Of a stretch of 64,000 nt of DNA, positions 27,299 through 59,266 are shown one piece after another. The DNA is from Bolinopsis microptera (Eukaryota; Ctenophora; Tentaculata; Lobata; Bolinopsidae). Under the pieces are notes generated by a model. The model worked only from the letters and a program-made list of their open reading frames with translations, was not told the origin of the DNA and did no database searches. The stretch is taken from NCBI RefSeq assembly GCF_026151205.1, contig NC_087076.1:12447675-12511674 (forward strand), read 5' to 3'. Made by a program: the position numbers and the translations under genes. The first letter of the stretch is position 1, and the number at the start of each line of letters is the position of its first letter.

Positions 27299-28948
27299 TT
27301 AAAGAATCACTGGATACCCTATATACTGGTAGTGGTTTACCTCATCCTCTGTGCTCTCCTTGAACAGAAGATATACATCGTAGTAAACAATTACAACGCC
27401 TAGCAACCGCAGTAGTCCATCGAACCCAACTTTACTAAGGTATTTCAATGGGCTTGTCCAGTCAATGATGGTATCGAACTTCCAACTTTCTACCTTTGCA
27501 AACTTATCAAAGAATTCTTTAGCAAAGTGTTGGCACTGGCTTTCAAGAGGATTGTATGTATTTTTCGGCAATTTGCGTTCCAGCCAACCAACCACATCAC
27601 CAAGTGAAGAAGTTGACTTGTCCATAATTAGTCTTTTTACAGGTTCTGGGCGTTTTACTCCGTTAAAGTAAAACACAACAGAGTCACGACTTTTACTACA
27701 ACTCACGTATATTCCGTCTGTCATCTTATCAACAGCCCAGCACATCCCATCAATAGATTCCGCAATTACAAAAGCATGGTAGTCGAAAGAAAGGTATTGT
27801 TGCTGCAAGTAATCGCAGAAACCTTGTGTAGAACTGCTAAATGGACCAGTTAAGGGAGTGCTGCAGACTGCAACACGTTCTAGGTTAACATCCAAATTCT
27901 GAGAACAATTTTCAAAAAATTGCCTAACGTTCTCAGCTTCGACCTTTTTAGTCCTCCACCCAATTAGTCTTCTTACATCAGTGATGGTATCCAACTTCCA
28001 ACTTTTCTTCTCTGCAAACTTATCAAAGATTTCTTTAGCAAAGTGTTGGCAGTTGCTTTCATAAGGATAGTATGTATTTTTCGGCAATTTGTGTTCCAGC
28101 CAGCCAACCACATCACCAAGTGAAGAAGTTGACTCGTCCATAATTAGTCTTATTACAGGTTCTGGGCGTTTTACTCCGTCAAAGTAAATCACAGAGTCAA
28201 TACTTTCACCACAACTCACCCATAATCCGTCTGCCATCTTATCAACAGCCCAACACAACCCATCACTAGATACCATAGTTACAGAAGCATGGAAATCCAC
28301 AGAAAGGTCTTGTTGCTGCAAAATGGAACCGCTAAATGGACCAGATAGGGGAGTTCTGCACACTGCAACACTTTTTATTTTAACTGCCAAATTCGGAGAA
28401 TAATTTTCAAAAAATGGCCTAACGTTCTCAGCTTCGACCTTTTTGGTCCTCCTCCCAAATGGTCTCTCAGTAGGGGTATGAAGTATCTCAGGTCCCTCAT
28501 CAACGTAGCCAACAGCCAACAGGAGAAAAGCTGAGAGGAGATGGACCGATATAACCACTATCTCCACTAAATTTGATCTGAAATAATTTGTTCAAATTTA
28601 AATTTTATTAGCGTACTCGTTAACTGTGTACTTCTATTAAGGTAATTTAAATGATCACTAACACCCCACGGTTATCATTATTATGAACAGCACCAATTAG
28701 GAACTGACTGGAATCGGATATCCGAATTTAATATCTGGATTCCAAGAATTTGGCTGGATATTCAACCGGAAACTGTTTTTAAATGTATTTCTATAATGTA
28801 ATATTGAGATAAAACATCGGGAACTATCTGGCTGTTTCTGGTCAGGCAGCCAAAACCCCGGTCAGTTCCTACTTTCTAGCACCAACGTGACAACTACTTA
28901 CCCTGACCATGTGTATGCATCTTCCCATATAAGGAAATCCCGAAACCA
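27299..28948 (-). CDS. Tandem LRAT/NlpC-P60-like domain protein (5' incomplete)
   Basis: The main exon runs from 28577 to 27299 and encodes a hydrophobic segment (VVISVHLLSAFLLLAVG) and two copies of one domain. Each has a His (DFHASVTM; DYHAFVIAE) and a Cys in SNCQHFAKEIFDKF or SQCQHFAKEFFDKF, about 95 residues apart. This is the His...NC-HF arrangement of the permuted NlpC/P60 fold of LRAT and PLAAT acyltransferases and related thiol hydrolases, so an acyltransferase or hydrolase is possible; the substrate is unknown. The two copies are very similar at DNA level, so the duplication is recent. The frame has no ATG at its head (it opens at GTG). A 47-bp exon at 28902-28948 joins in phase, and further 5' coding sequence must exist upstream, perhaps near 29054-29245. 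A C-terminal membrane segment (LLGVVIVYYDVYLLF) follows. Confidence 0.65.
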
Positions 28949-33416: not shown

Positions 33417-36400
33417 TTAAAACTTCCCAGTGGAATAAAGATTTATAAAACGTTTCTTCGCCACAAAAGGATGAAACCAAAGATATTCATTATGTGTCTC
33501 CTTATTGCTTAAATAACTGGGTCCTTCAATTTTCCCTAAAACTTCGTTCGAAACATTCCAAAAATAAAAATCATTTACACTGTTATTAGAAATCATTTCT
33601 TTCTTAAATCCTTCCAACCTAACTTTAAAGCTTAAAACTGTCGAGCAGTTCTTGACATCTGAAAGGAGTTTGTTCCAGTAAGGAATGACTCGCTCCGGAA
33701 GAAAAGAAGACTGGAGATTCTTAACTTTAGTTACACTCTTACTACACATATTGGTTGAAACTAGATTAAGACCAGATCTGCTCATTCTGAACAAACCCTA
33801 TCCATATTCAGTCAAACCACTAGTTACTTTAAAAGCTTCAATAAGGTCCCCACGTATTCGCCGCTCTGCCAGCGTTGTCAAATTGAGGATATCCAGTCTA
33901 CGGCTGTATGGAAGAGTACCCACCTCATCAATAAGACGGGTAAACCGCCTCTGGACGCTCTCCAGCTCCAAAACAGTCCCCCAACTTCCATGAGCCGCAG
34001 GTGGATTCCACAATTGGACACAATACTCAAGATGAGGTCTTATCAAAGCTTTATAAATAGCTATCATTACAACCTTTTCTCTAATAACTAAGTTCCTTAC
34101 AATCCAGCAGATCATACGATTTGCTTTAGAAATACATGCTTTTATCTGTTCATTCCAAAGCAAGGAGCTATGGGTAATAACCCCCAAATCTTTTTCCTGT
34201 GCAGATACTTCTAGTTCTACTCCATTTACAATATAATTCGAGTTAGGATTATTATTCAGATTAATATGGACTACTTTACACTTGGCAAGATTGAAGTTTA
34301 AGTGCCATATACTCTCCCAAATTTCGAGTTCTAAAATATCATCAGATACACTTTTATGGTTAGCTGCATTACAAACTAATTTGAGATCATCTGCAAATAA
34401 TTTAATCTTATTTTTAACATTGTCAGGTAAATCGTTTATATAAAGAATAAATAACAAAGGACCTAATACTGATCCCTGGGGAACACCAGATAATACGTGT
34501 TTCACCTCAGACCATTGACCTTCTACACAAACCCTCGTGGTTCTGTCTGTCAGAAAGTCTTTTATAACATCTAAAACTTTTTGTAAAACAAAATTTTTTT
34601 TTTTTGTAAAACAAAATTTTTATTTACCACAAAACAATCAATACATATTTAATATTATTATACATTTACAAATAAATCTAAATTTAAATTCAGCTATAAA
34701 CACAATACACAGCCCGCCGCGCAGACAGCCACACATTGCTGAGAGATTCTCAGGTGCAGATGTAAGCGCCGCGCGCGCGAGGTTTGTTATTTTACAATTA
34801 CATGTCACGATATATTATTAATTATCAGAGAATTTTAGAAGCAAAATAATAATTGCATATTGGGAAAATTTTGGTCGTTAACGCAGTCTTTTCCCTTGAC
34901 CCCAAACCCCTCCAATTTAGATAAAAGTCTAAAGTGGGGGACTGTATCGAAAGCCTTACTAAAATCAAAATATAAAAGATCAACAGGAGCACCTTCATCT
35001 AAAATATCAAGAATATTATCAAATGTCTCTAAGAGATTAGATAGACAAGATTTACCCTTCACAAATCCATGCTGATGCTTTGAAATTCGTTCTTCTAAAT
35101 ATGTTAATAAATGTGCCCTCACCAACTTTTCATACACTTTGCACAAAATACAAGTTAATGAGACAGGTCTATAATTTAAGGGATCAGATTTAACACCCTT
35201 TTTGAATAATGCTACAACAGATGCTGTCTTCCAAATGTCAGGCAGGACTCCTGTTTCTGAACATTTAACAAATAATTTAGTAACAGCTTCAACAAACATT
35301 TCATCGTATGCTAAGGATTTCAACAACTTTGGATGAACGCCATCCGGACCAGAACTCTTAAAACATTAAGCTTTAAAAGCTGCTTCTTGATATCAGAACT
35401 GCTAATTTCCATATCATCAATCACCTCTTTGTTATAACTCTCATTTTGGGGAAGAGGGCCAGGTGGTTTACGCACAAACACAGAACTAAAGGCACTAGCA
35501 AGTACCTCAGCTGACTCAGATGAACTATCTGTGCGTGTACCATCTCCTCTATCTAAAGAAACAACACTTGATTTCACTTGACGTTTATTACGCAAATACG
35601 AGTAAAAAGATTTACAATTCTGTTTTAAATTAGATGTAATCTTCTTTTCATAATTTACTTTAGCTTTAATCTCTGCCACCTCAAAATTATGCTGCTTGCT
35701 ATTTGCACAGCTCAAGTTAATATACGAAGGATTAATATCAAATTCAGCCCATGCTCTGTCCTTGTTCTTCCTCATTCTTTTAAGTGCAGTTGTACTCCAT
35801 GGCAACTTGACAGGTCTGTTGTCGAGATAAACCGAAGCAGCTGGGACAGCTGCAGCAACAGACTCCAATTTACCATGTAGTTCAACCCACATATCTTGAA
35901 CATTACTTTTACAACTATAATCCCAGTCAATATTATTCATACTAAAGTTAAATAACTCTTCTGAGGAAATCTTACCCCAAATAGGCTTTAAAATCTTTTG
36001 TTTGGGACTTTTGTTAGTATTGGGCGAAACAACCAGTTCGACAAGTATGCCAACATGATCACTTTTGCCAAGCGGAGAAACGATCTTACAACCGTTGACA
36101 AGAGCATCATTTGTATACAAAACCTGATCAAGAAGACTCTCCTGGAGAGTATCTTTCACAAGCCGTCTTCTGGTTGTTTCGTTAGTAAAGTACCACGTCA
36201 AACCACTGTCATTAAATAAATCAATATACTTTTGTTGAATCATTAAAACCTGATTCTTACTAGAAATACCACTATTTACACTACCAGTTTCCCATGATAC
36301 ATTAGGTAGGTTAAAATCTCCTATGATAATGGTTTCAAAAACATTCTTTTCACTAGATATGTTCTTGATGCAAGATAATAACATATTGTTCTGTTCTAAA

Positions 36401-36765
36401 TTCAAAGAAGTAGACCTATAAATACAGCAAATACTAATCAATCCACCAGAGGTATTGACATTAATAGCTAAAGAGTCTGGTGCTTTTAAAAATGAGCTCA
36501 CTAATGAAGCATTACAACTGTTTTTAATATAAATAATAGAACCTGCACCTCCACTTATGTTGCTAGTGGAGTTATCGATTTTAAAATCTCTGTCTTTTCT
36601 AAACATACTAAAACCTTCAATAAAAATTTCAGCATCTAAAATATCACTATTAAAATGAGTTTCTGTAATGCAGATTACATGAATAGATTTATAAACTGAT
36701 AGAATACATTTTAGTTCATCAATTTTATTAAATAGTCCATTAGCATTAGTATAAAAAATATTCAT
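33417..36765 (-). pseudogene. LINE ORF2: endonuclease-reverse transcriptase, broken
   Basis: The endonuclease part (36765 to about 35355) shows APE landmarks FYTNANGL, ITETH, IIGDFNLP and SDHVG. The reverse transcriptase follows with FKKG, YRPVSLT, HGFVKGKS, YFDFSKAFDTVPH, GVPQGSVLGPLLF and the catalytic FADDLKLV. Three lesions inactivate it: a frameshift near 35355 in the linker, just before the GPDGVHPKLL motif; an insertion of about 305 bp between the GFGVKGK and VLDVIKDF motifs; and an in-frame TAG at 33798-33800 near the C-terminus. The catalytic motifs themselves are intact, so the element died fairly recently. The start lies 29 bp after the ORF1 stop. Confidence 0.9.
34583..34887 (-). 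mobile_element. Nested A-tailed insertion in the LINE
   Basis: About 305 bp that separates two pieces of LINE coding sequence which read on from each other once it is removed. On the minus strand it ends in A-rich sequence (AAATAAAAATTTTG and a run of 12 A). AAAAG borders both sides and could be part of a target duplication. It contains a short GC-rich block (GCGCCGCGCGCGCGAGG on the plus strand). Probably a small non-autonomous retroelement; class uncertain. Confidence 0.65.
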
Positions 36766-36794
36766 GGGCTGACTACATTCTTTGTTACTGCTAT

Positions 36795-37766
36795 TTACTT
36801 CTTCTTCGCCTTCTTCTCTGTCTTTTTCTTCTCTGCTTCTTCCCGCCTCTTCTTCCTCTCTTCTCTGGCTAAAAAACGGATCTCTCGGTCTGCTCTGCAG
36901 AGATCCAGATTTATCCAGTATGATGACTCTTTCCAGCCCTTGCCATGGTTGGAATAATAGTTAACTGACTCCTGGTCAGCTGTCTGGATGATCAATGGCC
37001 GACAGGAGTCTGGCTTGTCTGAATCCACTTTACCTGCACGATGGCAACTGATAAAGTCACTTTTTTCAATCTTTAATGTCTCCTTGCAGAAATTCGAGTC
37101 CTCTTCCTGACGTAGCTTGGAGTTAGCTTTCTTGCTCTCTGGTACATTCAAAACACACAGATTGAGCTTCCTTAAATTCCGCTCATATGCATCAGTGTGC
37201 ATCTTTGTCTGAACTTTACTGACAACACTTTGTGAAGCTTGCTGTATGCTCATTTCTTCAATAACTTTCTTTTGACTATTTGCAGTCACATCTGCCCAGG
37301 ATTTGAAAGCCTGGTTCACTATTTTTGTTATTTCTTTTGGTTTTTCAGATGAATCATTAGAAGAACTGGTATGACTCACAGAATCTTCAACAATTCCTCT
37401 AATACACGGAGTTAGGGCCTCAAGTTCTTCTCTAATAACATTTCTCAGGGTCTTGGTTTCTTCACTGTCTGGATTTGTGGACTGGCTCCTCGTGCCCTTG
37501 ATGTGGGGGGAGATAAAGCAATTTTGGCAGCGCCAGTTAGTCAAGCGGTCACCTTCTTCCTGCGTTAATCCTGTAAGCCCAACACAGCAGTAGTGCCAGT
37601 ACATTTCGCAAGTTGCACATGCCAAAGAAAACTCCTCCTCAATATATTTTCTACATTCACAGCTGCGATCTTCTTCGTCGTCAATTTCACCATTATCTGT
37701 TGTCCCACCGATCTTTTCTGGACTTCTCTTGACATTTCTGGATCGTGTACTCTTTCCGCGTGTCAT
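36795..37766 (-). CDS. LINE ORF1 protein with PHD-like finger
   Basis: Intact 323-codon frame. A C4HC3-type zinc finger (CECRKYIEEEFSLACATC, then WHYCCVG, then WRCQNC; residues about 35-83) is followed by a coiled-coil-prone middle, a NLCVLNVPESKK segment like the RRM-type core of LINE ORF1 proteins, and a lysine-rich tail (KKTEKKAKKK). PHD-finger ORF1 proteins are typical of CR1-like elements; the role is RNA binding and particle formation during retrotransposition. Confidence 0.85.
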   Translation of the reverse strand: MTRGKSTRSRNVKRSPEKIGGTTDNGEIDDEEDRSCECRKYIEEEFSLACATCEMYWHYCCVGLTGLTQEEGDRLTNWRCQNCFISPHIKGTRSQSTNPDSEETKTLRNVIREELEALTPCIRGIVEDSVSHTSSSNDSSEKPKEITKIVNQAFKSWADVTANSQKKVIEEMSIQQASQSVVSKVQTKMHTDAYERNLRKLNLCVLNVPESKKANSKLRQEEDSNFCKETLKIEKSDFISCHRAGKVDSDKPDSCRPLIIQTADQESVNYYSNHGKGWKESSYWINLDLCRADREIRFLAREERKKRREEAEKKKTEKKAKKK

Positions 37767-37800
37767 ACCTCAAATTATTTGTTATATAGTAGTGTTGAAA

Positions 37801-47923: not shown

Positions 47924-48257
47924 ATATCTCATTAATTAGTTTATATATCTCATTAATTAGTTAATATATCGGGGGGGGGGGGGGTGTCACGTCCGTCTAT
48001 GTCCGCTTGTCTCATAGAATCCAAAAAGGACAGGACATAGGCGGACATAGGCGGACATAGACGGACATAGGCGGACATAGACGGACATAAGCGGACATTA
48101 ATGGACACCTAAATTGCTAAATAAAATGTTCAATTTTTGCTGTTAAATAGGGGATCATGTTTTTTGTCCGTTCGGTACCCTATATTTTCAAAACGGACAA
48201 AAAATAGAGCGGACAAAAATGGACAAAAACGGACAAAAATGGAAATAACATTTAGAT

Positions 48258-50417
48258 GCTTCCTCCTCCTACTCTTCCTCCTCCTCCCCCTGGGTCTTCC
48301 TGATCTTCCTCAGTCCTCTTCCTCCTCCCCTCCTCAGTCCTCCTCCTACTCCTCCTCCTCGTTCTCAGTCCTCCTCCTCCTCCTGAGTCCTCCTCCTGGG
48401 TCCTCCTCCTGCACTGGGTCCTCCTCCTCCTCTTCATCCTCCTCCTCTTCCTCCTCAGTCCTCAGTCCTCCTCAGTCCTCCTCATCCTTCTCCTCAGTCC
48501 TCCATCCTCTTCCTCAGTCCTCCCCCAGTCCCCCTCCTCCTCCTCCTATTCAGTCCTCCCCCTCCTCCTTCTCAGTCCTCCTCAGTCCTCCTCCTCCTCC
48601 TCCTCCTCCTCTTCCCTCTCAGTCATCCTCCTCAGCCATCCTCCTCAGTCCTCCTCAGTCCTCCTCAGTCCTCCTCCTCAGTCCTCCTCCTCCTGGGTCC
48701 TCCTCCTCCTCTTCATCCTCCTCCTCTTCCTCCTCGGTCCTCAGTCCTCCTCCTCCTGGGTCCTCCTCCTCATCCTTCTCATCAGTCCTCCTCCTCCCCA
48801 GTCCTCTCCCAGTCCCCCTCATTCTCCTCCTCCTATTCAGTCCTCCTCCTCCTCCTCCTCCTCAGTCCTCCTTCTCATTTCTCCTAAGTCCTCCTCCTGA
48901 GTCCTCCTCCTCTTCCTTCTAAGTCCTCCTCCTGAGTCCTCCTCCTCCTCCCTCTCAGTCATCCTCCTCAGTCATCCTCCTCAGTCATCCTCCTCAGCGA
49001 TCCTCCCCAGCCATCCTCCTCAGCCATCCTCCTCAGTACTCCTCAGTCCTCCTCCTTCTCAGTCATCGTCAGTCCTCCTCCTCAGTCCTCCTCAGTCCTC
49101 CTTCTCCTCCTGGGTCCTCCTCCTCCTCCTCCTGGGTCTTCCTGATCCTCCCCAGTCCTCTTCCTCCTCCCCTCCTCAGTCCTCCTCCTACTCTTCCTCC
49201 TCGTCCTCAGTCCTCCTCATCAGTCATCAACAGTTCTCCTCCTCCCCAGTCCTCCTTCTCCTCCTGGGGCCTTTTCCTGGGTCCTCCTCCTGGGTCCTCC
49301 TCCTCCTCCTCCTCCTGGGTCCTCCTGGGTCTTCCTGATCCTCCCCAGTCCTCTTCCTCCTCCCCTCCTCAGTCCTCCTCCTACTCTTCCTCCTCGTCCT
49401 CACTCCTCAGTCCTCCTCATCAGTCCTCAACAGTTCTCCTCCTCCCCAGTCCTCCTCCTCCTGGGGCCTTTTCCTGGGTCCTCCTCCTGGGTCCTCCTCC
49501 TCCTCCTCCTGGGTCCTCCTGGGTCTTCCTGATCCTCCCCAGTCCTCTTCCTCCTCCCCTCCTCAGTCCTCCTCCTACTCTTCCTCCTCCTCCTCAGTCC
49601 TCCTCATCAGTCCTCAACAGTTCTCCTCCTCCCCAGTCCTCCTCCTCCTCCTGGGGCCTTTTCCTGGGTCCCCTTCCTGGGTCCTCCTCCTCCTGGGTCC
49701 TCCTTCTCCTCCTCAGTCCTTCTCCTCCTCCTCCTCAGTCCTCTTCCTCCTCTTCCTCCTCCTCCTCCCTCTCAGTCATCCTCCTCAGCCATCCTCCTCA
49801 GTCCTCCTCCTTCTCAGTCCTCCTCCTGAGTCCTCCTCCTCCTGAGTCATCCTCCTCAGTCCTCTTCCTCCTCCCCTCCTCAGTCCTCCTCCTACTCCTC
49901 CTCCTCGTCCTCAGTCCTCCTCCTCCTCCTGAGTCCTCCTCCTGGGTCCTCCTCCTGCACTAGGTCCTCCTCCTCCTCTTCATCCTCCTCCTCAGTCCTC
50001 AGTCCTCCTCAGTCCTCATCCTTCTCCTCAGTCCTCCATCCTCTTCCTCAGTCCTGGGTCTTCCTGATCCTTCTTCCTCCTCCCCTCCTCAGTCCTCCTC
50101 CTACTCCTCCTCCTCGTCCTCAGTCCTCCTCCTCCTCCTGAGTCCTCCTCCTGGGTCCTCCTCCTGCACTGGGTCCTCCTCCTCCTCTTCATCCTCCTCC
50201 TCTTCCTCCTCAGTCCTCAGTCCTTCTCAGTCCTCATCCTTCTCCTCAGTCCTCCATCCTCTTCCTCAGTCCTGGGTCTTCCTGATCCTTCTCCTCCTCC
50301 TCAGTCATCCTCCTCAGTCATCCTCCTCAGTCATCCTCCTCAGCCATCCTCCTCAGCCATCCTTCTTAGCCATCCTCCTCAGTACTCTTCAGTACTCTTC
50401 AGTACTCTTCAGTCCTC
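48258..50417. repeat. 2.2-kb polypyrimidine minisatellite
   Basis: Variants of CCTCCTCAGTC, CCTCCTCCTGGGT and CTTCCTCCTC, nearly all pyrimidine on the plus strand apart from AG and GGG steps. Larger blocks are repeated: the GGGTCTTCCTGATC motif recurs at about 48291, 49133, 49328, 49521, 50046 and 50274, so the array grew by copying segments of about 200 bp or more. Mirror-symmetric stretches could form triplex DNA. Confidence 0.95.
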
Positions 50418-50419
50418 AA

Positions 50420-50592
50420 AATGTTTGTCCGCTAATGTCCACCAATGTCCGCTAATGTCCACCAATGTCCATCCAAGTCCGCCAATGTCCGTCCGGGTCC
50501 GCCAATGTCCGTCCGAGTCCGCCAATGTCCGTCCGAGTCCGCCAATGTCCGTCCGAGTCCGCCAATGTCCGTCCGTGTCCGCCAATGTCCCA
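50420..50592. repeat. 20-bp tandem repeat CCAATGTCCGTCCGAGTCCG
   Basis: About eight copies, the first few degenerate (CCACTAATGT type). Open in several frames on both strands but only as a repeat artefact. Confidence 0.9.
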
Positions 50593-50822
50593 AAAAACAC
50601 GTCCGTTGTCTCATAGAATCCAAAAAGGACAGGACATAGGCGGACATAGACGGACATGACACCCCCCCTATATCTCATTAATTAGTTTATATATCTCATT
50701 AATTAGTTTATATATCTCATTAATTAGTTTATATATCTCATTAATTAGTTTATATATTGTAATATTCTATCAAGATAAAGTGGACGATAAAACAGTCTAA
50801 TCCAGAAAGTATCAGCTTGACA

Positions 50823-51837
50823 ATGGATGCTGATACAGTTGCCTGTCAAAAGATCATAAACGCTGAAACTCCTTTCGAATGTTTTGAATTACCCACTGAA
50901 GAAGTGGACCCAGAGTTAGTAAGGAGCCTTTATCTGAAGATAGCTGTTAGAATTCATCCTGATAAGAACAAATCTGATCTTGCCACACAAGCTTTCCAGG
51001 TATACAGTTGGTGTTCAATTTGGTGTTCAATTTGGTGTTCAATTTAGTGTTAAACAAGACAAAAACACGTTTCTTTCTTAACAATGCGCCTACATCTACT
51101 AGTTGTAAACCTAGGTATATTTCAGCGCTAAAGTATAAATATATAATATAAAGAATACTAGAATAACAGTCCATGAACCCTCCTAGATCCTATCCGAATC
51201 GTTTGAAGAACTTCACGACGAGTACAAACAAACCCAGCTACTCCGCAAGACTTCCCAATCCATCCACCCCCACCAGAAACACACTCGTCGCAAGAGAAAA
51301 AAGAGAAAACCCCAGGATATAGCTGATCTAGTGCACCAAACTGATAAGTGGTACACTAAAGACTGGAAGGATGTGGAGGAGGAGATAAGTAGAATGACTA
51401 ATGAGTTTAAGGAACATCTGGCTCGCAAACAGGAGAAACACGAGAAGCAGTTGGAGAAGAAGAGTGAGAGAAGAGAACGGAAAAATAAGAGGATAAAGAA
51501 GAATTTGAACTTTCTGTATGAGAAATATGGGATAGATCCCAGTGATTCGGACTCGGACAGTGATAAGAACACTTATAATTACGTAGCGTATGTTCCGGAG
51601 GTTCAGGCAATTGCAGATACCGTCGAGCCGACCCCTTCAGAACCAAGTTCAGAAGTAGCTTCTACTTCAGCTTCTTCAAAAGAATCAGTTTGTTGGGTGT
51701 GTCGGAGAAGCTTTCAATCTGAAGATATGTTGAAAATCCACTATGAGAAGTCAGAATTACATAGAACTAACGTGGAAAAAGCAAATAATCCGTCGCTCAG
51801 ATTTAAGAATAGTTTTTCTGAAGTTAAAGATACTTGA
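50823..51837 (+). CDS. J-domain and C2H2-finger protein
   Basis: Two exons, 50823-50999 and 51187-51837, phase 0, 275 residues. The N-terminus has a J domain with the HPD tripeptide (LVRSLYLKIAVRIHPDKNK), expected to stimulate an Hsp70. A lysine/arginine-rich region (HTRRKRKKRKP), a long charged coiled coil (about residues 115-175), an acidic DSDSDSD patch and a C-terminal U1-like C2H2 finger (CWVCRRSFQSEDMLKIH...H) follow. J domain plus this finger recalls DNAJC21-like co-chaperones in RNA biogenesis, but the order and lengths do not match any I can name, so no symbol is given. A 14-bp TGGTGTTCAATT repeat starts just after the exon 1 donor. Confidence 0.85.
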
Positions 51838-52416
51838 ATTGATGTTTTTACTTTATACCAATTCTTTGCTGTTTCATGTACGTTTTTAACGTAGTAACTA
51901 TGTTATGGGCAGATTACTTGGCATTTTCGCAGTTTGTGGATTTTGTAAATTTTAAATGATGGCGTTGAGAATTAAGTGAATGTTTATTTTCAGAAAATCA
52001 ATGATGTTCCTACTTTACACGGGCATTATCTTTTTATGACCGTGTAATTTGTGTTATTGTGTGATATATACGAACTATGAAAGATGTTGAACTTCATTTA
52101 TACAGATAAGCGGCGAAGTTTAGCCAACATGGCTCATTGCTGCTGCATTTTGCTTGCTCAAAACCATCTAGACTGTTATCTTAAAGTTATAAAATTTAAA
52201 TTTAAAGACTTTCCTTTTAAGATACCTCACTATCTTCACGCTTACAGACTTTCCTGAAATGTTACACGTTTTCTACACTTTACCACCCTTTTTACCAACA
52301 CCCATCAGGCTAAAAAAGTAAAAAATGATCATTGATTTACTAATGTTACCAAATTAAATTGATAGATCCCGTCTCCCCATCTCCCTATCTTGCTAACTCA
52401 CACTTTTGGAAAGGTA

Positions 52417-53210
52417 ATGAACCAGCCGATATCAGGAGACGAGTTATTGAACTTCTTCAAGACGCTAGACGATTACACGCCCACCCTGCCGGACTCCCTT
52501 ACAGCACACTATCTCTCTCAGGCAGGACTCCACACCTCCGATCCCAGGATTGTGAGTACCTCTGCTGCACGTGGGCGCTGTTTGCACGTGGGCGCTGTTT
52601 TATGTAGGCTTCGATGTTTGTCAGCCCCGTGAAGTAGTTTCTACTGAGCTGAGTTTCACTTTTGGTATTTCATATTATATGTTTCATCTTCCTCGATTTT
52701 ATTAATGAGCAAGATGGGCAGTGCTCACTTATATTCTCCAACAACAGGCCGAACAGTAGATCATGTTAAATTATATCTATATTTCTAACATTTCGTTTAC
52801 TTTTCCTTCGCTAAATATTTGTAACCACGGAACTTTCTTCTCAATTTCAGATAAGACTAGTGTCACTAGCAGCTCAGAAGTAACTTTCTCAATTTCAGAT
52901 AAGACTAGTGTCACTAGCAGCTCAGAAGTAACTTTCTCAATTTCAGATAAGACTAGTGTTACTAGCAGCTCAGAAGTAACTTTCTCAATTTCAGATAAGA
53001 CTAGTGTCACTAGCAGCTCAGAAGTTCATCACAGAGGTAGCTTCAGATGCTCTGACACACTCTCAAATGCGGGGTAACCCTGCTGGTGGGTCCAGTGCTT
53101 CCGGCAATAAGAAAAGTAAGGAAAAGAAGAATTGTCTGAGGATGGAGGATTTGCAGCCTGCACTGGCCGATATGGGCATTCAAGTCAAGAAACCAGCGTA
53201 TTACATGTGA
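52417..53210 (+). CDS. TAF10: TFIID/SAGA subunit TAF10
   Basis: Histone-fold subunit shared by TFIID and SAGA. Exons 52417-52551 and 52995-53210, phase 0, 116 residues. The core matches throughout: LLNFFKTLDDYTPTLPDSLT (human LMQLEDYTPTIPDAVT), YLSQAGLHTSDPRI, RLVSLAAQKFITEVASDAL, RMEDLQPALADMGIQVKKP. Human TAF10 (218) has an extra disordered N-terminus; here coding may extend 5' of 52417 if an acceptor at 52365 is used. The exon 2 acceptor lies at the end of a fourfold 48-bp array; only the last copy continues into coding sequence, since the first three run into TAA after AQK. Confidence 0.93.
52833..53024 (+). repeat. 48-bp tandem array of TAF10 3' splice sites
   Basis: Four copies, each with CTTTCTCAATTTCAG followed by the first 30 bases of TAF10 exon 2 (ATAAGACTAGTGTCACTAGC onward). 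Acceptors fall before 52851, 52899, 52947 and 52995. Copy 3 has one substitution (GTGTTACT). Confidence 0.97.
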
Positions 53211-53723
53211 TCTGGAGTGAAGTTTCGTGTGATTCATGTGATTTCACGTGATCTGGCCGCGATTACATTTCGTTTAGTCGTTTGTGTTGAAGAAAGCTGG
53301 AGTTGTCAATCCTGTTAAGACGGTTCAGTTTTAGAAAAACAAATCATCTGTTGTTGTTGTTACTGTACGTGACGTCTCACTGTTGCTTTGTTTAATCACT
53401 GATCAATGACAGTTCTATGTTCCCATACTAGTGTACCTCAAGTAGATTGGTATTTAGATAACAATGAGTTAATACCTGATCACTTCAAGACAGTTTTCAG
53501 CTTTTTAGTGCTTCCTGTAAAGTGGTTTGTTTGTTCTTTTTTAAGGTGGCGAGTTCGGCTTCATTTGGCCTTTTGGGTTCCTAAGGTGACACATTTTTAA
53601 TAGAAATTAAAGTTCAATTTATGATATGAAAAAAAAACTCAGTTCATTCAATTATTTCGAAAATAATTCTGTAAATTAAGATTGGTTCTATTTTATTCAA
53701 TTGGAATACTTGCTGTTTTCTCA

Positions 53724-54153
53724 AGGGCAGCTGGTCAGCCGGCACAATGTCACTCCTCTTAAACGACATTATTAGGTAATAAACGACATTATAATCTCTT
53801 AATGACAATATTACAAGATAAACGGCATTATATTCTGTTAATGACAATATTACGAGATAAACGACATTATATTCTGTTAATGACAATATTACAAGATAAA
53901 CGACATTATATTCTGTTAATGACAATATTACAAGATAAACGACATTATATTCTGTTAAAATGACAATTATATTGCAAGATAAACGACATTAATATTCTGT
54001 TAATGACAATATTACAAGATAAACGACATTTTATTCTGTTAATGACAATATTACGAGATAAACGACATTTTAATCTCTTATCAAAATTTAAACGACATTA
54101 TTGCCAAAAGCGACGATATTCGTGGGAATTGCGCCGGCTGACCAGCTGCCCCT
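53724..54153. mobile_element. Short TIR element with a 39-bp minisatellite core
   Basis: Terminal inverted repeats: AGGGCAGCTGGTCAGCCGGC on the left and GCCGGCTGACCAGCTGCCCC on the right. The interior is about eight copies of a unit built from GATAAACGACATTATATTCT and GTTAATGACAATATTAC. No coding capacity. Target duplication unclear. Non-autonomous DNA element of unknown superfamily. Confidence 0.82.
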
Positions 54154-54354: not shown

Positions 54355-55487
54355 ATGGCCGTGACAGAGTACCCAGTAAAAGTGAACTACTGCGGAGTTT
54401 GCTCCCTTCCCCCAGAGTACTGTGAACATGGGCCACTGTTTGACAGGTGCAAGGAATGGATGGAGGACAACTTACCTGATGACTTTGCCAGACTCATCCT
54501 CAATAAAACTCAGGTAACTAGGTTACAGTTACTAGGTGATACACTTTGCCAGACTCATCCTCAATAAAACTCAGGTAACTAGGTTACAGTTACTAGGTGA
54601 TACACTTTGCCAGACTCATTCTCAATAAAACTCAGGTTATTAGGAAAACACAAATAAAAACATCTTTGTGCATTTGAATGCTATTTGGGTTTTTATATAG
54701 TGGAAGGGGCCTTGATAACTTTGGACACTTTGGCCTACATTCGCAACGTACCATGCATGGCCATGGTACGTTTTTATTAGCAATTAGCATGCTATGGTAA
54801 GAGTAAGTTCGACAATCGTATTAATAACAAGAACAGCTTTAAAAATGGATTAAATCCCACTCATCCTGCTTAGGTGTGGTGCAAATGAAATTATTGTTCA
54901 ATTAACCAACAATATGAACAGTCCACCTTTTTAAAGGCCTTGTCAAACACGTTTTGCACCTTAGACGCCATCCTAAAATAACTCAAGAATATGATCGGCA
55001 AAACAGGAGAAAAAACAATTTAATTTTCTATCAGTTACACTTGCAGCCTGATTCCTGAGGTTATATATTGAAAATAGGTGTTATATATTGGGTATATTGA
55101 AAATAGGTGCTGAAAATAGTCATACTATTTCAGGAGGAGTTAGAAGCAATGTCTCTGAACAACAGTAAAAAGAAACAAACGAGAGGAGGTAAAGCTATGA
55201 AGAACATCACTAAAAAGCAAGAACTACCAAGACAGGTCATAGTGGGTCGGTCCATGAGAGCTCGGAAGAAGTACGTGACCCTGGTCAGGGGACTCAAGAC
55301 GTGCGACATGAACCTCAAGAAATGCGGCAAAGCGTTCGGTCAGAAGTTTGCGTGCGGATCGTCCGTGACGGGAGACGATGAGATCACGGTTCAGGGCGAC
55401 GTAGTGGACGAGATGATGGACTTCATTGTGGAAGAGCTGGGTATTGAGGAGGACCTAGTGGTGGACGGGGGTGATATTAAAGATTGA
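54355..55487 (+). CDS. DENR: Density-regulated protein (re-initiation factor)
   Basis: Partner of MCTS1 in translation re-initiation and 40S recycling. Exons 54355-54513 and 55134-55487, phase 0, 170 residues (human 198). The N-terminus has the cysteine cluster VNYCGVCSLPPEYCEHGPLFDRC (Cys positions as in human YCGVCSLPTEYCE). The linker is lysine-rich. The SUI1 domain runs from VIVGRSMRARKKYVTLVRGL to FGQKFACGSSVTGDDEITVQGDV. The ATG follows GCTTGCAG by one base. The exon 1 end and its donor are tandemly repeated downstream. A polyadenylation signal AATAAA lies at 55592-55597. Confidence 0.96.
54482..54640 (+). repeat. 61-bp tandem array of the DENR exon 1 donor
   Basis: Copies of a 61-bp unit covering the last bases of exon 1 (ACTTTGCCAGACTCATCCTC) and the donor CAG/GTAACT. 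Donors follow 54513 and 54574; the third copy reads CAG/GTTATT at about 54635. Reading through to the second donor meets TAA at 54565-54567. Confidence 0.96.
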
Positions 55488-58312: not shown

Positions 58313-59266
58313 ATGGAAGTGAGAATTCCCCAAAGTGCACCATTAGACCCCCACCACCACCTTCACTCGGCTCAGGTGGCACCATTAGACCCCCACCACC
58401 ACCTTCACTCGGCCCGGGTGGTGGAAGAAGAGTTCTTGGAAGAAGAAGAAATACTAAAGGGAGATGAGGAGATAATAGAAGAAGAGCAGATGGTGCATCT
58501 TGAGGATGTACTGGATCAGATTGGATCAGAAGACGATTCTGCTGAACTCCAGATGGAAGAGCAGAACGTCTCGTACGAAGAGATGCCCGAGAAAAAGGAA
58601 TTCCAATGTGAGTACTGCAACTATTCCACAAACCGTCGGAGTGATCTAACAAGACACGTGCGGGGTCACACCGGGGAGAACTTATTCCACTGTGTGAAGT
58701 GTGAATACAAGACAGCTCGTAAATCAGACCTGAGACGGCACCATCTGCTTCACGCGGGAGAGAAACCTTTCAAGTGTGGGGTATGTAACTACACCACATC
58801 CCGCAAGACGGTGCTGCTCAAACACATGCACATCCACACTGCTAACCTGCCCCGCTGTAGAGTCATCTTAGTTCAGGTCACTAAAGAGGGACAAAAAGTG
58901 ATCAACAACAACGCCCTGGCCGACCTTCCTTCCTCTTCTACCGTGGAGACCACCACCTCTTCCTCATCATCCCCCAAGAAACGCAGAACCTCCAGTGCTT
59001 CTGTCAAAATGTACTCGTGCGACAAATGCGACTTTGTGGCCGCTTGTCGCAAGAACTACCATGAGCACCGCCTGAGCCATGGCAAGGAGCAGAAGTGGAA
59101 ATGTCCAATGTGTGGCTATATGACAATCAGGAAATCCGACATGACAAGGCATTTCAACATCCACATTGACAACGTCTTCAAATGCAACCTGTGCGAGTAT
59201 AAAACAGTGAGACACTCGGACTTCGTCAGACATAGCAAGACCCATAATAAACACAAATACCAATAA
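58313..59266 (+). CDS. C2H2 zinc-finger protein, paralog of the previous gene
   Basis: One coding exon, 317 residues. The N-terminus has a 42-bp in-frame duplication (APLDPHHHLHSAQV / APLDPHHHLHSARV), then an acidic region. Three fingers (CEYCNYSTNRRSDLTRH, CVKCEYKTARKSDLRRH, CGVCNYTTSRKTVLLKH), a Ser/Thr-rich and basic linker (SSSSSPKKRRTSS; possible nuclear signal), and three more fingers ending CNLCEYKTVRHSDFVRH. Finger style and acidic head match the gene 1 kb upstream, so the pair looks like an old tandem duplication. ATG lies 14 bases after CTCCCAG. Function not assigned beyond nucleic-acid binding. Confidence 0.87.
   Translation: MEVRIPQSAPLDPHHHLHSAQVAPLDPHHHLHSARVVEEEFLEEEEILKGDEEIIEEEQMVHLEDVLDQIGSEDDSAELQMEEQNVSYEEMPEKKEFQCEYCNYSTNRRSDLTRHVRGHTGENLFHCVKCEYKTARKSDLRRHHLLHAGEKPFKCGVCNYTTSRKTVLLKHMHIHTANLPRCRVILVQVTKEGQKVINNNALADLPSSSTVETTTSSSSSPKKRRTSSASVKMYSCDKCDFVAACRKNYHEHRLSHGKEQKWKCPMCGYMTIRKSDMTRHFNIHIDNVFKCNLCEYKTVRHSDFVRHSKTHNKHKYQ

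Follow-up and report, generated by a model that had tools for sequence, protein, structure and literature searches.

The window, a 64-kb stretch of contig C5 in an assembly of 264.65 Mb and 232 contigs, carries a two-exon gene in which a short tandem array lies across the boundary between intron 1 and exon 2 (Table 1). Joining exon 1 in phase to the sequence after the fourth acceptor of this array yields a product of 116 amino acids, which scores 127.4 bits against the Pfam TAF10 domain PF03540, exceeding the gathering score (cut-off 28), and aligns with human TAF10 at an E value of 1.3e-34, the match reaching residue 217 of 218. These protein matches identify the gene as a genuine TAF10. Searching the genome with the TAF10 protein, at E values up to 0.1, scored 8 candidates and left 2 matches, which are the two exons of the present gene. 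A further TAF10 that could serve as a backup was thus not detected among the 8 scored candidates, and that idea was rejected. The gene next to TAF10, whose second coding exon carries the SUI1 domain PF01253, is presumably DENR.

Several other features were recorded in the window. A 39-bp minisatellite of 7.6 copies occupies positions 53779-54080 between TAF10 and DENR (TRF), and a near-exact in-frame duplication of 42 bp at 58337-58421 lies within an open frame that encodes C2H2 zinc fingers. At 923-2909 a 17-bp unit is repeated 117 times with 97% matches (TRF); the minus strand is open in several frames there, so the long open reading frames of this repeat are probably not genes. A TCC-rich simple repeat of about 2 kb spans 48261-50354 (TRF), and the interval 48001-52000 exhibits strong strand asymmetry, with a GC skew of -0.43. 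On the minus strand, open frames at 33417-37769 resemble, by eye, a broken non-LTR retrotransposon with reverse transcriptase and endonuclease-like stretches. Also on the minus strand, the open frame at 27302-28591 consists by eye of two similar halves and matches the PPPDE peptidase weakly, at 25.8 bits and under the cut-off of 29.2.

Table 1. Coordinates of the TAF10 gene parts, the tandem array and the associated splice motifs in the window.
Feature	Position	Strand	Basis
Coding part of TAF10 exon 1 (45 codons in phase 0), with GTGAGT as the adjoining donor	52417..52551	+	Translation and TAF10 matches; start codon inferred (in-frame stops upstream)
TAF10 intron 1 to acceptor 4, 443 nt (299, 347 and 395 nt to acceptors 1-3)	52552..52994	+	Sequence only
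Acceptor 1 context: branch-like TAAC, A at 52824, 26 nt from AG	52822..52850	+	Motif only; branch-site role inferred
Tandem array, 48-bp unit, 3.9 copies, across the 3' splice site	52838..53025	+	TRF, repeat finder, alignment of copies
Donor-like GTAACT at repeat junctions	52880..52885, also from 52928 and 52976	+	Motif match
Acceptor 4 context: junction-made branch-like TAAC, A at 52979, 15 nt from AG; likewise acceptors 2 and 3	52977..52994	+	Motif only; inferred
TAF10 exon 2, coding part from acceptor 4 to TGA stop	52995..53210	+	Translation
ATTAAA, candidate poly(A) signal of exon 2	53606..53611	+	Pattern match only

The unit of the TAF10 array comprises 18 intron-end bases and the first 30 bases of exon 2, and it occurs four times, with 98% matches (TRF). 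The preliminary description of this DNA had reported a 48-bp unit present four times over the intron end and the start of exon 2, which TRF, a repeat finder and the alignment of copies all confirm; the acceptors it had listed were likewise found, as AG/ATAAGA directly before 52851, 52899, 52947 and 52995. The repeat finder placed a 92-nt reference, nearly two units long, at 5 places with spacings of 48, 48, 48 and 48; the inner three agree at 99-100%, against 64% and 62% for the outer pair that reaches into the flanks. Copies 1, 2 and 4 are identical across 44 aligned bases, and copy 3 carries a single C-to-T difference. In copy 1 exact sharing is limited to the last 13 intron bases of the unit; the part preceding it reads AACTTTCTTCTC, as against AACTTTCTC in copies 2-4, and the pyrimidine tract is TTTCTTCTC in copy 1, three bases longer than the TTTCTC of copies 2-4. 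A donor-like GTAACT is created at every one of the three repeat junctions; neither these sites, nor the longer tract of copy 1, nor the amino acid change caused by the variant base of copy 3 figured in the preliminary description. The locus thus holds what a tandem duplication over a splice site would leave, namely head-to-tail near-identical copies each with intron end, AG and exon start, and four near-exact copies of 48 bp in this arrangement are not a product of chance.

Short near-identical repeats are prone to miscounting, and the real copy number could differ from that of the assembly through an assembly or sequencing artefact. We regard this as quite unlikely, given that copy 3 is marked by an internal variant and copy 1 by a different tract, that the 188-bp array would be short relative to a long read of any kind, and that a DNA search of the genome with 52833-53210 gave one place, in a search that skips simple repeats and scores best candidates only.

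The coding outcome depends entirely on the acceptor. Exon 1 joined to 52851, 52899, 52947 and 52995 translates into 55, 55, 55 and 116 amino acids, respectively, bearing out the earlier claims that full-length TAF10 comes from the fourth acceptor alone and that a TAA follows the tenth exon-2 codon in copies 1-3. The in-frame stop is made at the repeat junction, AAG/TAA, and the unit length of 48 is a multiple of three. Of the 102 positions in PF03540, the 55-residue protein from acceptors 1 and 2 spans only 3-46, so that the whole domain is not retained; the product of acceptor 3 is one residue apart, the base change in copy 3 replacing Ser with Leu within its truncated frame. Full intron retention gives 71 amino acids. 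Enumeration of splice paths, confined to the exon-1 donor, the four acceptors and the three GTAACT array donors, produced 21 paths, 4 direct and 17 via array donors, and the 116-residue protein arises solely from the direct jump to 52995, while the other 20 of the 21 end in 55 amino acids. Rescue through the array donors was rejected as a candidate, none of these 17 enumerated paths being full length.

Exon 2 completes the TAF10 protein, reaching the equivalent of human residue 217 of 218 before the stop at 53210, and no later coding exon exists. Junction-dependent NMD needs an exon junction after the premature stop. An early stop without a coding exon junction downstream does not provide one, and junction-dependent NMD of the products of acceptors 1-3, judged by coding exons, is therefore not expected.

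The junction-made donors raise the prospect of a nascent small intron, in which a GTAACT would pair with a downstream copy that provides both tract and AG. Such introns would be 19, 67 or 115 nt long. An intron of 19 nt is below the size for normal splicing. All 17 enumerated paths that use array donors give 55 amino acids, leaving no usable frame, and although the same type of duplication gave rise to an intron in the potato RdRp gene (PMC4974935), we hold an emerging intron at the TAF10 array to be very improbable.

The potato gene is nevertheless a direct precedent for the array as a structure, by analogy with what is reported for it: a segment spanning the end of intron 1 and the start of exon 2 was duplicated in tandem there, and 106 RNA-seq reads support the new intron that resulted (PMC4974935). 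Both loci combine a duplicated intron end, pyrimidine tract, AG and exon start with a GTAA-type donor activated at the junction (PMC4974935). They differ in that the potato case is reported with two copies and an RNA-supported new intron, whereas TAF10 has four copies and no frame-compatible intron among the enumerated paths. Introns are known to be gained through tandem genomic duplication, and imprecise outcomes of this process are described (PMC3443670); the likeness to TAF10 is that local copying makes new splice sites and that the imprecise outcomes described there include coding-altering ones (PMC3443670). The classical intron-gain model, as presented in this literature, duplicates an exonic AGGT, whereas in TAF10 a genuine 3' splice site has been copied.

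The four acceptors compete in unequal surroundings. Pyrimidines fill 13 of the 17 positions from -20 to -4 at acceptor 1 and 11 of 17 at acceptors 2-4, while in the narrower interval from -15 to -4 all four acceptors have 10 of 12. The branch-like TAAC lies 26 nt from the AG at acceptor 1 and 15 nt, as a junction-made motif, at acceptors 2-4; the AG-free stretch upstream is 89 nt for acceptor 1 and 16 nt for acceptors 2-4. Simple splice signals, read as motifs, would favour acceptor 1. The complete exon 2 is joined only to acceptor 4, which could favour that acceptor. Reported experience with acceptor choice points both ways: in two minigenes, an AG pair set a few bases further apart led to nearly exclusive use of the upstream AG (PMC2875228), and a preference for the downstream AG in many cases is also reported in the cited acceptor-choice literature. 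A structured RNA hiding the decoy acceptors was considered and rejected, the fold of 52800-53080 having no excess stability (z 0.06; 101 of 200 shuffled sequences equalled or exceeded its stability).

Since the motif-based signals favour the wrong acceptor, the array probably costs the gene some TAF10, lowering output to some extent. In mouse, early embryos die upon germ-line loss of Taf10 (PMC8564675). With a single TAF10 found here, full tolerance of the array requires that acceptor 4 be used well; given the lethality in mouse, acceptor 4 must be used sufficiently unless the assembly represents an impaired allele of a heterozygote. Such an allele would be a strongly impaired or null TAF10 allele opposite a single-copy haplotype, and the favoured context of acceptor 1, together with the 55-residue outcome of 20 of the 21 enumerated splice paths, is in keeping with it; the assembly has one TAF10 gene, hence the other haplotype would be absent from it. 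Prediction of splice-site choice from motifs only is unreliable, however, and the exclusive link of acceptor 4 to the complete exon could tip the balance the other way. We consider such an allele unlikely, though the most plausible of the alternatives.

A background sample places the array in its genomic setting. It consisted of 20 stretches of 10 kb at regular places on contigs C1-C5, amounting to 200,000 bases, of which 100 were N. At a period of 30-100 and at least 85% matches, it held 23 arrays, or 11.5 per 100 kb, a density counted irrespective of splice sites, with 5.0% coverage; two long arrays (L004 7200-9999 and L016 4050-7438) account for about 6.2 of the 10.0 kb covered, and without both the coverage is about 1.9%. 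The 64-kb window held 8 arrays by the same limits, at 2.5% coverage. Arrays with at least 95% matches numbered 8 in the 200-kb sample and 4 in the window, where close-copy arrays are therefore somewhat denser. Arrays like that of TAF10 are common in the present genome.

A second array of this kind lies in DENR, where a 61-bp unit in 2.7 copies extends across the first donor at 54482-54644 (TRF). Use of the donors after 54513, 54574 and 54635 gives 170, 70 and 70 amino acids, respectively. Donors 1 and 2 are identical (CAG/GTAACT), and the two downstream donors run to a stop, so that full length comes solely from the repeat copy attached to the exon body. With its array over a donor, DENR would represent the mirror image of the TAF10 accident in an adjoining gene.

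The same geometry accounts for the dependence of full-length TAF10 on one copy of the array. Whenever a 3' splice site is duplicated in tandem, a single copy stays joined to the remainder of the exon, and for that reason only the last copy works. The preliminary description had raised a possible nonsense-mediated dosage switch, in which acceptor choice would determine the amount of functional TAF10; as a regulated splice switch, use of acceptors 1-3 relative to acceptor 4 would set the dose. Full-length protein from one acceptor only would suit such a device, and the acceptors are so near-identical that small changes in trans-factors could shift the ratio. The claim nonetheless finds no support here: geometry suffices to explain the pattern, junction-dependent NMD would not be predicted for early stops in the final coding exon, similar arrays are common (23 in 200 kb, and DENR), the near-identical copies suggest a recent origin, and the RNA has no special fold. 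A regulated switch is accordingly rated as highly unlikely. Its heritable variant, a rheostat in which the copy number of a splice-site minisatellite differs between individuals and sets the full-length TAF10 fraction, hence TFIID and SAGA dosage, appears more doubtful still.

We favour instead, as the probable explanation, an unselected accident of the minisatellite type, tolerated or mildly hypomorphic and not a regulatory device. The tolerated duplication that had been offered beside the switch fits better than the switch does, with the amendment that the splice signals favour the wrong acceptor and some loss of TAF10 is to be expected. The array may have begun when about 51 bp spanning the end of intron 1 and the start of exon 2 were duplicated in tandem, after which the new copy would have lost three pyrimidine-tract bases; the 48-bp unit would then have been amplified to four, probably recently, and copy 3 would have acquired its single base change. 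The TTTCTC shared by copies 2-4, unlike copy 1, agrees with a single duplication event and a later expansion of the 48-bp unit. The near-identity of the copies suggests that the array is recent and that its copy number may still differ among individuals, although homogenisation of an older array could give the same near-identity. Under this unselected-accident explanation, units 1-3 would be decoy 3' splice sites within an obligate intron, and functional TAF10 would derive solely from transcripts joined at acceptor 4, whose use we infer.

Minisatellites are head-to-tail arrays of near-identical units, tens of bases long, whose copy number is likely to vary. The TAF10 array resembles them in its type of unit and differs by straddling a splice site. 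It also resembles tandem acceptors of the NAGNAG type, in which neighbouring AGs compete for one exon, as described in PMC2875228; NAGNAG choice is a 3-nt wobble, whereas 48 nt separate neighbouring TAF10 acceptors, and each of these has a tract and a branch-like motif of its own. Among the listed titles and abstract openings on tandem duplication and intron gain, on acceptor scanning and on TAF10 splicing and loss, no such TAF10 array is described, though one may still be in print.

The TAF10 array amounts to an experiment of nature on spliceosomal choice between near-identical acceptors distinguished chiefly by their upstream and downstream context, and it lies in a conserved gene found once in the genome. 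If RNA showed efficient use of acceptor 4, exon context would outweigh acceptor order and branch-site context; otherwise, the array would be an example of a minisatellite-rich genome placing duplications over splice sites.
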